Positions 2,965 to 51,600 of a DNA stretch of 64,000 nt are shown here, piece by piece. The translations under genes were made by a program, and so were the position numbers. Under the pieces are notes generated by a model. The model was not told the origin of the DNA. It searched no databases and saw only the letters and a program-made list of their open reading frames with translations. Position 1 is the first letter of the stretch, and every line of letters starts with the position of its first letter. Source of the stretch: Cylicocyclus nassatus (lineage: Eukaryota > Nematoda > Chromadorea > Rhabditida > Strongylidae); contig CATQJL010000305.1 of NCBI GenBank assembly GCA_958299035.1, positions 37,337,733 to 37,401,732 of the forward strand, in the 5' to 3' direction.

Positions 2965-3985
2965 TAAGGGTGCCTTCATTTCGCGCCGGCAGCCGCCGCT
3001 AGCAGCCCGTAGCAGCCGTCAGCAGCCGCCAGCAGCCCGCAGCAGCCGCCAGCAGCCCGTGGCAGCCCATAGCCGCCGCTGGCCGCCTTTGTTTAGGAGC
3101 AAAATCGTCAAAATCTTACTACTTTAAGTGCTCCTGCCTACGCTTTTCATCTTCTACGCTTATTTCTTCTTATTGTCGCTAATATGCAGTTCAACTCCCC
3201 ACAATTCATTTGTATTCATTGTTCTGTTCCGCACATTGTATCCTATCGCGCTCACATTGTTTTGCAATCTGTCTTATTTATTTATTTATTTATTACATAC
3301 GCTCTAGGCGTTCCTTAAAAAGACAAAAACATACAGTTGCTCATACTCTAATACCACGATAATTCATTATGTAACTTGGGTCTAAGCATTTGGACTAGAT
3401 TATTGGAAGTGTGAAGCCTGTTTGTGACTGCTCTAAGACTGTAGTCAACAGAACTGAGTTAGTGTGTTTCATGGAGATGGTACTCATGCCCCCTTTTTGC
3501 CAGCAAAAATTTTGATTCAAATAAGCAAAAAATTATTAATTAAATTATTAATTTATTTGAAAAGATGTGAGCGATTATCAAAGCAAGAAAAACTCAACCC
3601 GCAAATGAATTCCGGCGAACTTGCGAAATAGTAGAATGCAAGTTACATATGCACCGATAGCCAAGAAAAATTGAAGCAAAAGCATACTTGAAAAACAAAT
3701 TGCACACCTGCTGGAACCGGACGCACCCAAAGTCAGAGCGAATTACTCCGGAAAGAACCTTCTATCAACTATGGCTGCTACGGGCTGCTGGCGGCTGCCA
3801 CGGGCTGCTGGCGGCTGCTGCGGGCTGCTGGCGGCTGCTGCGGGCTGCTGGCGGCTGCTGCGGGCTGCTGGCGGCTGCTGCGGGCTGCTGGCGGCTGCTG
3901 CGGGCTGCTGGCGGCTGCTGGCGGCTGCTACGGGCTGCTACGGGCTGCCAGCGGCGGCTGCCGGCGCGGTATGAAGGCACACTAA
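2965..3985. repeat. Foldback structure with inverted minisatellite arms
   Basis: The left arm (about 2965-3090) contains a diverged array of CAGCAGCCGCCAGCAGCCCG. The right arm (about 3770-3985) contains its reverse complement, repeated with a clear 20 bp period. The outer flanks also match in inverted orientation: GGTGCCTTCAT followed by CGCGCCGGCAGCCGCCGCT on the left, and AGCGGCGGCTGCCGGCGCG followed by ATGAAGGCAC on the right. The arms enclose about 680 bp with a TTTA microsatellite near 3276-3293. The structure recalls foldback elements with tandem-repeat termini. No transposase is seen. Confidence 0.65.
3777..3949 (+). repeat. 20 bp GC-rich minisatellite
   Basis: At least eight units of CGGGCTGCTGGCGGCTGCTG with an exact 20 bp period in the centre and degenerate units at both ends. 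Because 20 is not a multiple of three, the long open frames over it are frame-rotating low-complexity artefacts and not a protein. Confidence 0.9.
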
Positions 3986-4819: not shown

Positions 4820-5483
4820 TCACATCGCGCCGGCTCTCGTTCTCTTTGTGAAATTTATCGGTCACAAATGCCTAGCCGACTTTAATTGCGCTGTCGTGCC
4901 GTTTTGAAGCGATGTAATTCGATCGCATTCATAACTTGTCCCGCACCAAAATCTGTTTTTAGGTTGCATGCGAGTCCATGGCGCTGTTGTGGGCATCGGT
5001 AAGGAAAACAACAGCCTTTTCACGTCACCGTTGATGACAAGGTTTTCCATTTAAGGTGGAATTACCATTTGATCATGATTACCAGCCAAACGAAATTCAC
5101 GTTTGCTTCCCAAATAATTCTTATAATGTTTATGCGAAATCGCCAACTTTCTGTGAGGCGCCATAAACCTAGTCATGAACATGGGAAATATGTAGCATTT
5201 TTTGAGTTTACGCAGGTTTTGCGAGGGAACATGACCTTTTTGAAAAGGTATCTCTCAGTCTTTTTTGCAGTTTTTCAATGTTCTGTCTACGTTATCCTCT
5301 ACATTGTTATTGATTGGGTAGCAACTGATCCAAATAACGATGTCATGCGATTTTCGGTTATGGGCATCGGATTTCTGTTGATAAAGCGACAATAGTTATT
5401 GTTGTTGAGTTGTAGTAGATTTTCAATCTTCACCATGCTTCAACGTTTGTAAACACTCTTTTCACTCTGCAGCTAATTTTCAG

Positions 5484-38982: not shown

Positions 38983-39695
38983 GGGCCGCATGCACTAACA
39001 TCCCCGCGGGGAGGGGATCGCAGCTTAAAAGAAAGCTTTATATTTCGAAACTCCAGATACCTAGGTTTCACGTTGTGTACCTATCCGTAAGTATTCCTAC
39101 TACCCTTCACTATGAAGATGTTGAAGGGGAGCGAGAAGCTGCACAAACCGCATTTTCCAGCTTTAGTATGATCCCTGATGATCCCCGGCGCTTTTCTTTA
39201 AAGTCATTTTTCTTCCTCCAAAGTCAATGAAAAGTTTCCAAAGTTGTGGAGATTATCTAACCCAACACTGCTTAGCATGCTGCTGATAAGAACAAGTGAT
39301 GTATAGGAGTCATGGAATTTTCGATGATCCACAGCTCGAAATTTGAGGTTTACCGAAAAATTTGACTTTTCAAAAACTCATTTGTTCTCATCAGCAACAT
39401 GCTTAGCACTGTTGTGTTAGATGTTCAGTACAACTTTGAAAGGTTTTCGTTAACTTCGGAGAAAGAAAAATGACTTTAAAGAAAAGCGCCGGGGATCATA
39501 AGGGATCATACAAAAGCTGGAAAATGCGGTTCGTACAGCTTCTCGCTCCTGTTCAACATGTTCATAGTGAAGGGTAGTGGGAATACTTACGGATAGGTAC
39601 ACAATGTGAAATCCAGGTTTCTGGAGTCTCGAAATATAAAGCTTTCTTTTGAGCTGCGATCCCCTTCCCAGCGGGGAGGTTAGTGCATGCGGCCC
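38983..39695. mobile_element. 713 bp palindromic MITE, GGGCCGCATGCA family, copy 1
   Basis: The left end GGGCCGCATGCACTAACATC and the right end GTTAGTGCATGCGGCCC are flanked by TTA (38980-38982 and 39696-39698). The arms are complementary for more than 300 bp, including AAATGACTTTAAAGAAAAGC against its mirror near 39195. It lies inside the ~42 bp satellite. A second copy is at 56774-57488. Confidence 0.85.
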
Positions 39696-44334: not shown

Positions 44335-44700
44335 TTACAGCTTTTAACTTTTTCGAGATTGCACTTTGGAGGTTAGGGTTTTCATCAACATCGTCTAGAG
44401 CGGACATCACTGGCATAATGATGAGTCATCAACCCTGTAAACCTGCAGCGGCATGTTACCCCTTACAGCTTTTAACTTTTTGCAGACTGCACTTTGGAGG
44501 TTAGGTCATCAACATCGTCTAGAGCGGACATCACTGGCATAATGATGAGTCATCAACCCTGTAAACCTGCAGCGGCATGTTACCCCTTACAGCTTTTAAC
44601 TTTTTGCAGACTGCACTTTGGAGGTTAGGTCATCAACATCGTCTAGGTCGGACATCACTGGCGTAGTGATGAGTCATGAACCCTGCAGCGGCACGCAACG
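44335..44700 (+). repeat. 124 bp tandem repeat, about three copies
   Basis: The word CATCAACATCGTCTAG begins at 44383, 44507 and 44631, giving an exact 124 bp period. The unit includes GGCATAATGATGAGTCATCA and AGCTTTTAACTTTTTGCAGA. A single related unit lies near 42410-42500. It belongs to the 5' region of the Helitron-like element on the minus strand. Confidence 0.9.
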
Positions 44701-45627: not shown

Positions 45628-48600
45628 TCAGTGCAGAGCTGCTTTCTTGCACACATATGATCTCATGTTCGTGCTGCAAGGGATCTCGTTCCAACGGCGG
45701 TAACTACTGTCCTTTGACGGATCTTTTCCCACATAGTCACTGTGTATCTAAAATACAGCATTGGTTAAGGTAAATGCCCAAAGATGATGTCTGAGCTTAC
45801 CTGTACACAGTGCTCCTGCCCCTTGGTGTCATTCGGCTCACCTGGAGCCCAGTCTTTGTAATCATAAGGTGATCCATCGGTCCATGTCCAAGTTGCGCTG
45901 GTGGGGTAATTTGCCTGCGTTAGCCCTATCCATGTTAGAGAACTACTGTCGCTGTAATCCATACCGGATTCAGCTACCTCTGAATTGTGTTGATTGTACT
46001 TACTTGAACTTCATCCGCCTCCCACCGCCCATTCTATTGTGAAGCGCAAGTACAGACGAGCATATTGCTCTGTAGCAGTGCCTTTGCGGCACCGAAAATT
46101 TGCGGTGATTTTTGTGCGTGAGTAAATAGCTATGCCTGCATTGCCAGTGTTTCGTGCACTTTTTCCGACAAGAAGTAGCTATTTGCTCACGAGAAGAATA
46201 ACGCAATCTTTACTTCAGGGGCATATCTACCGACAATTCTGCTCGACTGTACAGAGACGAGGAAAGTGTGTTAGCTTCTTAAGCTTTTCCGTTGCTACAA
46301 GAACAAATCATGCCTCATCTCGTGTTGCACAATGGTGAATTTAATAGGTCTGCGAAATTGTTAGAGGCAGTGTCCGGGCAAGATGGGGGTTTTGGGATTT
46401 CAGTGCCATGCAAGAGTGGCCCCCCTCAGACACAACATCGTGTAAGTGCGACGTCATGACGCTCGACCTAAGAAAAACGATCGGAAAGTGGGGGAACTTA
46501 CGCCTTGGGGCGGGGTCCTTCGAGCTGTCCGAATTCTTGCTATGCGGCAGAGTACGCATGCAGCCACAGTTAAAATGTAGGGTCCCGCAGCTACACTGCG
46601 TCTCTGCCTTGGTGGAGACCTTCAAATTTTAAATCGTGCGTCTTCAAAAAAGTATGTTTTCGCCGTTTTCGCGCCTTCTAATGTGGATTTTCGGATTCAG
46701 CGTTGCGGATACCCGGTAAGTGGATTTTCTAGAAATCGAGTTTTTGCTCGGACACTGCCTTAAGTCGAATGCTGAGCCAAATTTGTTAGCAAATAATAAC
46801 TATCTTGATATAATTTCAATTGTTATATTATGCCGTAACAGGTTGTTATAGATGATATACTTTATTACCCGACGTTTCGGCAAGACGCCGTCTTCAGGGG
46901 CTGAAAAGGCGTCAATCACATTGATGCACACGATCTCTGCCGCCAAATATCTCCACCGACTTGCCACTCGATTCGTCTTGAGTGAAGGCAGGGAGTTTGA
47001 GGGCGAAGGTTCACCCACCAAGTATATCACCGATGTTGTAGCTAACAGCCGCTTCGGGTGTGCTTGGTCGAGTGCAGTGTCAAATGGGCACCCAAGCTAC
47101 TGCGGGGCTGTTTAAGTAGGGCACACAATCTTATAGTTTACAGTATGACAGATACGGCATTAAGTCACTCGTGATAGATAATTTCTCATTCTTGCTGTTT
47201 AGTTTGGGCTCACGAGTAAGAATGTAGGAGCCTTCCAAGGCTTTTCGTGCGGAAATTTGGTGTTCGTGGGCCAGGATTTTGCACCTGATATCGTAATCAA
47301 CTCCGTTATGTTCGGTCATTCTATGCTTTCCCAGTGGACTAATCATGCTTTGCCTCTTTTTGCTAGCTAGATGTTCACTGATACGCACACCTAGTGGCCG
47401 GCCGGTTTCACCGATGTATATGGCAGAGCACTTCGTACACTCAATTTGATATACAACACCAGATTTCGCACAATCTCCGAATTGTCCGTATGGGCACACA
47501 ACGCAGTTTCTTGTTATACAAGCTTTATCATACAATCTATTGCGTATTAACAGCTTTCTGATGTTGTCTCGCGGGATGTTAACTAAGACGACATCTTTCT
47601 CAAGGTGTGCTTGTATCAGACACTGTTTGACTGCAGCAGTGACCCTTTCGGAGATAAAAGGCAAGCATAATGGTACTCTATTGGTAGCTTGTTCGCCTGT
47701 CTTTACAGTGTTTCTTTTCGGACATCCGTGTCGCATAACATATCCATTCGAGGCTAATATTTCGGCTGCCAGCTTCAGTGACTCCTGCCTTTCCTCATTA
47801 CCGCTGCAGATTTGCGTCGCTGTTTTGATCATATTACGTACGACGGCTCGTTTGACAGCTTCTGGATGTGCGGACTTTGCGTGCAAGATAATGTTCTTAT
47901 CACTGTCTTTACGAAACCACTTCACGTGCACCGTTCCATTGCTCAACATCAGTTGTGTGTTCAAAAACGGTAGCCAACCGTCGCGCGGTTCTTCCCTCGT
48001 AAACCTTATGTATCTCGACTGTTGATTTAGTATTCGGAAACATTCGTCCATTTCGGACTTTGTCGACGTGACTATGCAACAGTCGTCGATATAACGACGA
48101 TACATAAGCGGGGCTTCGCTTTGTATCTAATGACAAAGCCTTACAAGCTTTATCTGAGATGCTAGAGTTACATTGTAAAAATATGTTGACGTATGGTCTC
48201 AGTAAAAGCCGCATCATGATTCTCACCAAGGAATGCTTAGATTGCAATATATTCAAATGGTCGGGAAAATATTACGCACAAACAAGAGGACTGGCAATGG
48301 GCCAGCGATTAGCACCCGTGTTAGCAATATGTTTCATGAGCAAAGTAGAAGAACCGGTGCTATCCCGAGCCCCGCTTATGTATCGTCGTTATATCGACGA
48401 CTGTTGCATAGTCACGTCGACAAAGTCCGAAATGGACGAATGTTTCCGAATACTAAATCAACAGTCGAGATACATAAGGTTTACGAGGGAAGAACCGCGC
48501 GACGGTTGGCTACCGTTTTTGAACACACAACTGATGTTGAGCAATGGAACGGTGCACGTGAAGTGGTTTCGTAAAGACAGTAATAAGAACATTATCTTGC

Positions 48601-51600
48601 ACGCAAAGTCCGCACATCCAGAAGCTGTCAAACGAGCCGTCGTACGTAATATGATCAAAACAGCGACGCAAATCTGCAGCGGTAATGAGGAAAGGCAGGA
48701 GTCACTGAAGCTGGCAGCCGAAATATTAGCCTCGAATGGATATGTTATGCGACACGGATGTCCGAAAAGAAACACTGTAAAGACAGGCGAACAAGCTACC
48801 AATAGAGTACCATTATGCTTGCCTTTTATCTCCGAAAGGGTCACTGCTGCAGTCAAACAGTGTCTGATACAAGCACAGCTTGAGAAAGATGTCATCTTAG
48901 TTAACATCCCGCGAGACAACATCAGAAAGCTGTTAATACGCAATAGATTGTATGATAAAGCTTGTATAACAAGAAACTGCGTTGTGTGCCCATACGGACA
49001 ATTCGGAGATTGTGCGAAATCTGGTGTTGTATATCAAATTGAGTGTACGAAGTGCTCTGCCATATACATCGGTGAAACCGGCCGGCCACTAGGTGTGCGT
49101 ATCAGTGAACATCTAGCTAGCAAAAAGAGGCAAAGCATGATTAGTCCACTGGGAAAGCATAGAATGACCGAACATAACGGAGTTGATTACGATATCAGGT
49201 GCAAAATCCTGGCCCACGAACACCAAATTTCCGCACGAAAAGCCTTGGAAGGCTCCTACATTCTTACTCGTGAGCCCAAACTAAACAGCAAGAATGAGAA
49301 ATTATCTATCACGAGTGACTTAATGCCGTATCTGTCATACTGTAAACTATAAGATTGTGTGCCCTACTTAAACAGCCCCGCAGTAGCTTGGGTGCCCATT
49401 TGACACCGCACTCGACCAAGCACACCCGAAGCGGCTGTTAGCTACAACATCGGTGATATACTTGGTGGGTGAACCTTCGCCCTCAAACTCCCTGCCTTCA
49501 CTCAAGACGAATCGAGTGGCAAGTCGGTGGAGATATTTGGCGGCAGAGATCGTGTGCATCAATGTGATTGACGCCTTTTCAGCCCCTGAAGACGGCGTCT
49601 TGCCGAAACGTCGGGTAATAAAGTATATCATCTATAACAACCTGTTACGGCATAATATAACAATTGAAATTATTCATCCTCAAGAATATGCCAAGGTTCA
49701 AAGATAAGAGGACTTACAACATATCTTGATATAGTTAAGAGCCTGAAAATGTAAGATTATGGGCGTTTATTTTACCAAGCAATGTCGCATATATGTGATC
49801 ATAAAAATTCGTAGACTAAGAGTAACTAGTTCATCAGCTTTATTTATGTATAAAGAACTATTTTACATCCAGTAGGAAAACTGAGATAAGTTCAAAAGTA
49901 AATTAATTGGAGTTTTGGCAAATTAACACCATTGGAGATGCTCCGCAAAAGTTACTGAAAAGCTGTTTCGCAGTTTGACCGAACAAAAACACGATCCCTT
50001 AGTATCGAACAGCCAGGTCACTGCAGATTCTTTTTTTTGTTCCGGGCAAATAGAAATTGGTCCGCTCCACATGTTTGGGAGCAAGCAATAACGCCAAAGG
50101 AGAAATTCGCAGTTAGTTTCAAATTAAGGCATACTTGCTCAAAGGCCCATTATTCTATTTCATCAAAAAAGTGTAACCTTGCACATTTTGCACAGTCGGG
50201 GTCTTGTGCAGATGGCTAATGGTGACCCGACCGCTTAGCCAGCATAATCTGCCTTGAAGACAGCGTCCAGGCAAATCTGGACCTATTGGGATTTTACGTG
50301 GGAAGTAATTTTGGGGTCCTGGCAAGCCACTGCCCAACCGGCAGCTCAGGTAGTGCTCTAACGGCTGAGATATTCCCCTCGAAACTGGATCCCGCGATCG
50401 TATTCGCATCGATTGATTTCGCGACCCATCAATTTCGCGCGAGGACCCACGGAATTGCGCCATGAATCCATGCAAATACGGTCCCGAGATCCAGTTTCGA
50501 GGGGAATGTTTCAGCCGTTAGGGCACAACCTGCGCTACTGGTTGGGCAGGTTCAGTTAGGGCCCCAAAATTTCTATCCCTGTAAAATCCCCATATGTCCA
50601 GATTTGCCTGGACGCTGCCTTTAATGACGCTAGAGCGCCTTCGCTTTTGTTTCTCTGTGCCGAGAGTGACAAGGAGGTATCTGTCGTATTTCACACCAAA
50701 ATCCCGCAAAACCCGATTTTCCCAAGCATCGCTCTCAATAGTAATTGGAAAACTCCTGATTAGGAGTACTAACCATTCACAAAGGTGTTCTCTTGCAAGC
50801 TGTGAATAGACGCAAGATGACCACCATTGGCTACGCAGACCTCCTCGGCGTTATCAAAATCTGCCCAAACGAATCGCTGAAATATACAGATGAACCACTC
50901 ATATCTTGCTCAGGCGATGCCATTTTTGTGCGTCAGTCACTAGGCAATAATATACGATATACGGCGTCCTCGACGCACCCTATAGCACGAATCCGTCACA
51001 TTAAAGTATGTCCATTCTGAGTCACAATGTCCTGGCTCTCCTGTAGAAAGTCATATTGAGCAGTATTTAAAAGCACCGCTCATGCAGTGAGGTTGATGAG
51101 ATTAATGCTATATATTAGTGAACCCTTAGGTAAGCAATCGCCGAAGCTTACTGAAAAGATGAATATCAAAGGCAAAAACCGCTCCAGAAGGGAAAGCGGA
51201 AGGCTGACTCCGCCCATCACGTGGGTGGTCTGGAGAAACAAGTACGAAATTAGTCTTCAGATTAGGCGAAAAAGTCGTAGGTAACAAGGGATATCAGAAA
51301 AAAAAGGGCGTATCTATGACAATTCTGGATACACTAAAGCCCAAGTTCGGATTTGTTAGATATCTTCAGACCATTCAGGATGATGGACTGAGCCAGCTTG
51401 GCCGCTTCTACTTAATGGAGTGGTTTCCTCGCTATGGAATACATCTTATGCATCGAGACTTATAGAGTACTTACTTAAGGGCCTCGCTATCAAGCAGCAT
51501 CAAACTCTCATAACCAAAATTCGGGTGGACGGTACCATATGCTAAATGTACTTACTTGGAGGAGGAGGGCATGTTGGAGTGGGACATGTGGGGCATGTGA

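Follow-up and report, generated by a model that had tools for sequence, protein, structure and literature searches.

Within a 64,000-nucleotide stretch of the Cylicocyclus nassatus genome (the window; contig CATQJL010000305.1, positions 37,337,733 to 37,401,732), two 5'-truncated copies of a Penelope-like element (PLE) lie head to head inside a single 12-bp target-site duplication, and only one of the two outer ends carries a tail. The same one-tailed plan recurs in sister insertions throughout this genome, and it constrains how such inverted units could form. The anatomy of the window insertion, in window coordinates, is as follows:

46801..46812, no strand: left copy of the 12-bp target-site duplication, TATCTTGATATA; its final 3 bp are common to the element end.
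46810..48115, minus strand: left arm, a 5'-truncated PLE copy with an outward-facing, tail-less 3' end, delimited by self-comparison.
47131-48126, minus strand: open frame of the left copy, from the list of open reading frames (ORFs).
47203..47460, minus strand: predicted GIY-YIG endonuclease domain of the left copy (PF01541, E 1.5e-5), residues 223-308 of the 47134-48126 frame.
48108..49352, plus strand: open frame of the right copy, with element sequence from 48122; the end of the predicted reverse transcriptase plus GIY-YIG.
48116..48121, no strand: 6-nt filler TCGCTT at the 5'-to-5' junction, unlike the element sequence expected for either copy.
48122..49673, plus strand: right arm, a 5'-truncated PLE copy as far as the tail-less end position; the mirrored part is 48368-49673.
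49674..49721, plus strand: 48-bp tail, right end only, in which the pseudo-long terminal repeat (pseudo-LTR) runs on into the ORF, covering its initial 34 nt (ATGCCAAGGTTC...).
49722..49733, no strand: right copy of the 12-bp target-site duplication.

Self-comparison of the window places the inverted arms at 46810-48115 (minus) and 48368-49673 (plus), each 1,306 bp long and 252 nt apart. Their alignment contains four mismatches (47076, 47589, 47605, and 47901), which bears out the near-identical pair reported by an earlier note on this DNA; the runner-up among the inverted pairs found in the window measures 292 bp at 89%. The framing duplication claimed in that note is equally sound, as TATCTTGATATA occurs on either strand of the window at 46801 and 49722 only. 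Its reading of the loop as extra 5' coding sequence of the right copy holds for 246 of the 252 bases, which are element sequence, but not for 48116-48121, which we regard as filler because close sister copies align only from 48122. The outer ends are asymmetrical as well: the right copy runs 48 bp further, whereas the left arm abuts its own duplication with an overlap of 3 bp. The note missed both the right-end-only tail and the inner filler, and it somewhat understated the observation.

Neither window copy is full-length, both being 5'-truncated where a close relative carries an 892-aa ORF; the tailed arm measures 1,600 nt and the tail-less arm 1,303 nt. All four differences between the arms are private among the sister copies compared, three to the left arm and one to the right, so the arms were probably identical at birth, and one further site is common to both window arms and absent from the other sister copies compared. 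The insertion is probably young, to judge from 4 differences in 1,306. We considered and set aside two source templates for these arms, since the mismatches are private only; the sequence fits one RNA or two from the same source.

The unit is a canonical GIY-YIG PLE. A single frame of the right copy matches PF00078 (E 3.1e-9) and PF01541 (E 2.1e-5, about 49023-49280), both above the curated cut-off, in agreement with the earlier assignment. Protein relatives at E<=0.001 number 211; the best of the top 120 of these carry PF00078, often together with PF01541, and the named relatives among the same 120 of 211 are nematode, mostly Ancylostoma ceylanicum, which supplies the best named match, and then Haemonchus contortus; the most likely host is accordingly a strongylid-like nematode. 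Tandem or partial-tandem units that create pseudo-LTRs occur in sister arrays such as C223_74, C112_40, and C1_40 and not in the window copy. Further PLE hallmarks are present: an optional tail at one end, drawn from the pseudo-LTR/ORF junction, and a short target-site duplication (12 bp in the window) at an AT-rich target, the framing repeats of 19 insertions having a mean A+T of 0.73. Canonical PLEs also have a hammerhead ribozyme motif close to the pseudo-LTR/ORF junction; within the pseudo-LTR here we noticed, by eye, a core, CTGAAGA...GAAACGTC (49585..49616, plus; mirror 46867-46898), which may be hammerhead-like. An Rfam search returned no ribozyme match at E<=5, and a single-strand fold of the end region was not significant (z -0.73). 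A possible stem, AACCT...GGC / ATGCC.AGGTT, surrounds the tail-less site and is invariant in 19/19 tailed ends (e.g., window 49639-49698), the rows having been located via ATGCC. As a separate observation, C1:30615616-30657613 holds a long and homogeneous tandem array of some 15 PLE units: fourteen consecutive head-to-tail joints, spaced ~2,975 bp and equal in match score, precede a tailed 3' end.

We searched the assembled genome (514,686,895 bases in 369 contigs); because the whole-genome searches score the best candidates only, all counts drawn from them are lower bounds. At least 101 scored PLE matches came from the protein search. Neighbours no more than 15 kb apart among these comprised 14 minus-then-plus pairs (5'-to-5'), no plus-then-minus pair, and 8 tandem pairs, one of the 14 close opposite-strand pairs (C223:89715026/89726507) bridging two arrays; beyond 15 kb all four orders are present. 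We then examined 25 arrays, namely the window and 24 sisters, with L028 and L029 left out, and in 19 of them the complete head-to-head unit sits between the two copies of a 12-16 bp direct repeat. The earlier note had proposed looking for inverted pairs of the same architecture, and 18 further arrays with the framed head-to-head plan now exist. The longest framing repeat is 12 bp in ten arrays, 13 bp in five, 14 bp in two, and 15 bp and 16 bp in one each, although repeats longer than 12 bp can include bases common to the element ends, and that of L031, which sits in TTTA-rich DNA, is ambiguous.

The way these arrays were chosen bears on what they can say about orientation. The first 14 sister arrays were selected mostly for facing copies, and head-to-head order is over-represented there; of ten later loci, nine were selected for long frames and one for closeness, and 7 of the ten are head-to-head with a framing repeat. 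We looked for the repeats where inverted alignments end on the outside, so the 19 framed arrays are head-to-head by construction, just as the minus-then-plus pairs recovered by the junction queries described below are head-to-head by definition. The sole test of order is the neighbour count within 15 kb. Tail state, however, played no part in choosing arrays.

Exactly one tailed and one tail-less outer end were seen in 19/19 framed arrays, tails being scored by overhang in 17 arrays and by the presence of ATGCC within the last 60 nt in 19. We widened the genome search with four junction sequences spanning the pseudo-LTR, tail, and ORF, and took the best 40 candidates per query. With no place counted twice, the 164 resulting rows divide into 38 that run into the ORF (internal tandem joints) and 126 outer ends, comprising 47 tail-less, 78 tailed, and 1 other. 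These outer ends fall into two clusters ~50 nt apart, with none in between. Bracket-pairing of the outer ends within 20 kb yielded 34 facing pairs (18 tail/none, 14 none/tail, 1 tail/tail, and 1 none/none), of which 32 have exactly one tail. In the first exception, C223:89714651-89718358, the two flanks are reverse complements of each other over 28 matching bases, of which about six belong to the element, and a second occurrence of the left flank lies at 89723840; in the second, C112:17935738-17936807, the flanks are reverse-complementary at 15/15 bases read. Because of these reverse-complement flanks, both exceptions are inverted duplications that include the target and not single insertions, and each is either a fold-back assembly artefact or a real palindrome. 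Two pairs tested by their flanks alone have direct repeats, of 13 bp (C223:89723840-89728053) and 15 bp (C1:61521731-61528141). Framed arrays and facing pairs overlap in 8, and their union of 45 pairs shows exactly one tail in 43, including all 21 pairs having a framing repeat. At C305:42462859-42471169, two one-tail pairs are nested, as if a PLE had entered a PLE or a duplication had taken place.

Which arm is longer varies: it is the tailed arm in 13/19 framed arrays and the tail-less arm in 6/19. The tailed arm of C112_63 is longer by little more than the tail itself; L039 has a tailed arm of 237 nt versus a tail-less arm of 2,533 nt, with no tandem unit seen. The tail-less arms of L033, L034, C112_40, and L039 have element sequence that the tailed arms are without. 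Whole-arm figures for L033 and L034 include later inserts in the arm; the innermost units of their tail-less arms measure about 1,450 and about 1,760 nt, respectively, next to tailed arms of 917 and 1,340 nt. C316_41 and C1_40 are weaker cases, given that their tandem units could be later additions. Judged by alignment ends in the 19 framed arrays, nine inner junctions overlap by 1-11 nt and nine have 1-33 unaligned nt (the upper value from L037, where the right arm starts at 5000), while the centre of C112_63 could not be resolved; ten inner junctions, including that of C1_76, were also inspected base by base. Joining two cDNA ends that had formed independently would produce such junctions; on their own, they are also compatible with template jumping. 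The short matches between the two ends and the target average 1.95 and 2.21 nt, compared with 0.59 and 0.66 nt in shuffled pairs; however, the shuffle understates chance, because the longest direct repeat takes in chance matches on both sides, and by reasoning the expectation lies nearer 1.2. The excess of priming homology is modest.

We consider it probable that a unit of this kind arises in one insertion, by two opposed target-primed reverse-transcription reactions that use each of two adjacent RNA start sites once. At an AT-rich target, the endonuclease would cut the two strands at positions about 12 nt from each other, and each exposed 3' end would prime cDNA synthesis on element RNA. A start site about 34 nt inside the ORF would yield the tailed end, and another about 50 nt upstream of it would yield the tail-less end. 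The two antisense cDNAs would extend toward each other and stop independently; their 3' ends would be joined, 5' part to 5' part, through end joining that uses little homology or leaves short filler, and fill-in of the stagger would leave the 12-bp duplication. The anatomy, the framing duplications, the one-tail pattern, the two discrete ends, the variable arm lengths, and the junction types are observed; we infer that both strands prime, that each start site serves once in an event, and in what order the steps follow. Two opposed priming events fit better than one because either arm can be longer and because the arms end at two discrete RNA sites. On the same grounds, the earlier note's suggestion of strand switching in one reverse-transcription run is not favoured.

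Several observations weigh against this reading. The window taken alone is compatible with snapback, as its tailed arm is the longer and nothing in its arms hints at two templates. C1_76 is tailed at one end yet lacks a framing repeat, C316_55 looks single-armed with ambiguous flanks, four arrays (C316_81, L030, L035, and L038) are not delimited, and the tail-less end of C316_41 lies ~33 nt further in than usual. As many as 58/126 outer ends are unpaired (44 tailed, 13 tail-less, and 1 other), partly because only the best 40 candidates per query were scored, so that some known partners are absent; single-armed insertions may nevertheless be common among them. Finally, in PMC11167929 the in vitro start site is the same for the top and bottom strands, and no one-tail prediction follows from that alone.

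Snapback would have the cDNA primed at the right nick fold back and copy itself, the mirror arm stopping before the tail. The longer tailed arm of the window (1,600 versus 1,303 nt) and the wholly private arm differences suit such an origin, and parts of PMC3846280 propose self-priming on an antisense template for rotifer PLEs from junction palindromes. A copied arm cannot exceed its template, however, and the tail-less arm is the longer in 6/19 framed arrays; in L039 neither arm can be a copy of the other, because only the short arm has the tail, which it could not have copied from a tail-less arm. Nor can later tandem duplication rescue the idea, since the tail-less arms of L039, L033, L034, and C112_40 contain extra element sequence. 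By eye, the window junction has a 6-nt filler and no clear primer match. As a general route, snapback thus fails on these four arrays, and we regard it as unlikely.

A reverse transcriptase that started at one nick might instead move to an antisense element transcript and finish there. Such a template jump permits any arm length and the 5'-to-5' order, and antisense templates are suggested in parts of PMC3846280. It requires, however, that the 5' end of the antisense RNA match the tail-less end in nearly every insertion, and the similar short target matches at both ends speak against it; we think it improbable. An assembly fold-back or a later inverted duplication is very improbable for the window: such structures do exist in this assembly, as the two exceptions with reverse-complement flanks attest, but the window mirror ends with the element, its flanks share a direct 12-bp repeat with no inverted repeat extending into them, the unit is tailed at one end, and the arms differ at 4 sites. 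To two separate insertions facing each other by chance we give almost no credence, despite the many copies in the genome (at least 101 scored matches), because there is a single duplication around the entire unit, TATCTTGATATA is absent between the copies, 0/14 close opposite-strand neighbours are 3'-to-3', and 19 arrays follow a common framed plan. The earlier note was right to disfavour that alternative, and its case for a single recent insertion is well supported by the one framing duplication, the private arm differences, and the 18 other arrays alike.

Inversion by twin priming is known from LINE-1 elements, in which each of the two target strands primes synthesis on element RNA and short homology joins the products (5' inversion). 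The second LINE-1 primer anneals inside the RNA and leaves an inverted segment without the 3' end, and LINE-1 insertions have a poly(A) or simple-repeat 3' tail. We rejected a LINE-1-type inversion for the window. Unlike its products, both PLE arms here carry the element 3' end at the target junction, and the end sequences contain no poly(A) or simple-repeat 3' tail.

The inverted PLE structure itself is not new. Portions of PMC3846280 describe, for Adineta vaga Penelope families (Pen2a_Av and others), arms in head-to-head order and, optionally, a tail at one of the inverted ends. Those rotifer elements resemble ours in having GIY-YIG domains, pseudo-LTRs, and an inverted pseudo-LTR that is most often head-to-head; a 31-bp tail on one inverted end; duplications of 8-10 bp; and, in Pen2a, inverted ends of unequal length. 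They differ in that the inverted arm is mostly a ~200-bp pseudo-LTR in the examples given there, whereas in the window it spans 1.3 kb and most of the 3' coding region, with a tail of 48 bp and a duplication of 12 bp. The self-priming on an antisense template favoured in those parts of PMC3846280 is opposed, as a general route, by the arm lengths reported here. The earlier note saw in the window a possible clear example of how inverted structures form; the sister set does inform PLE integration, but the inverted form is a published PLE trait (in part of PMC3846280) and no special accident.

The closest biochemical parallel comes from purified Anolis carolinensis Poseidon (PAc). According to sections of PMC11167929, this enzyme cleaves both strands of its target, extends each of them, and initiates at a pair of neighbouring RNA sites that bound the genomic tail, which supports the model of two opposed reactions. 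PAc and the element studied here are alike in both-strand activity, as we propose it here, two adjacent start sites, and AT-rich targets, and the 48-bp right-end extension matches the PLE "tail" as described in parts of PMC3846280 and PMC11167929. The main PAc start, however, lies 111-118 nt into the ORF, versus a tailed end ~34 nt in here. The PAc work is mainly biochemistry, and the relevant parts of PMC11167929 make no mention of head-to-head insertions or of a one-tail rule. A literature search that mostly did not reach subscription papers turned up no statement of such a rule, nor any attribution of inverted PLEs to both-strand priming.

Comparison of sister insertions within their own genome adds mechanistic value to a structure already described. 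The one-tail pattern, the two discrete ends, and the freedom of either arm to be longer turn a described oddity into a sharp constraint: any model must produce one tailed and one tail-less end per event, with neither arm a copy of the other. They also connect what one PLE enzyme does to both strands in vitro with a genomic pattern that can be checked in any well-assembled PLE-rich genome. A broader proposition, for and against which we see the case as evenly balanced, is that standard PLE insertion is itself a paired reaction, in which a dimeric enzyme cuts and primes both strands and each RNA start site is used exactly once, one per strand. Were it true, PLE transposition would normally yield a head-to-head insert with one tail, such an insert would be no by-product of self-priming, and the tail would be a record of strand and start-site usage.

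A few minor features lie outside this argument. At L030:4297-4321, AAGCAGTGGTATCAACGCAGAGTAC stands between an N run and a PLE pseudo-LTR; we take it to be a cDNA-amplification (SMART) adaptor, probably left over in the assembly. The 292-bp inverted pair in the window lies at 39008-39669 with a 78-nt spacer and is one of several smaller hairpins there, perhaps short inverted-repeat DNA transposons. Window positions 44382-44629 hold a direct tandem of two 124-bp units that are 100% alike, and a G+C-rich repeat with copies every 10 bp (GGCTGCTGCGGGCTGCTGGC) occupies 3753-3985, within an open frame.

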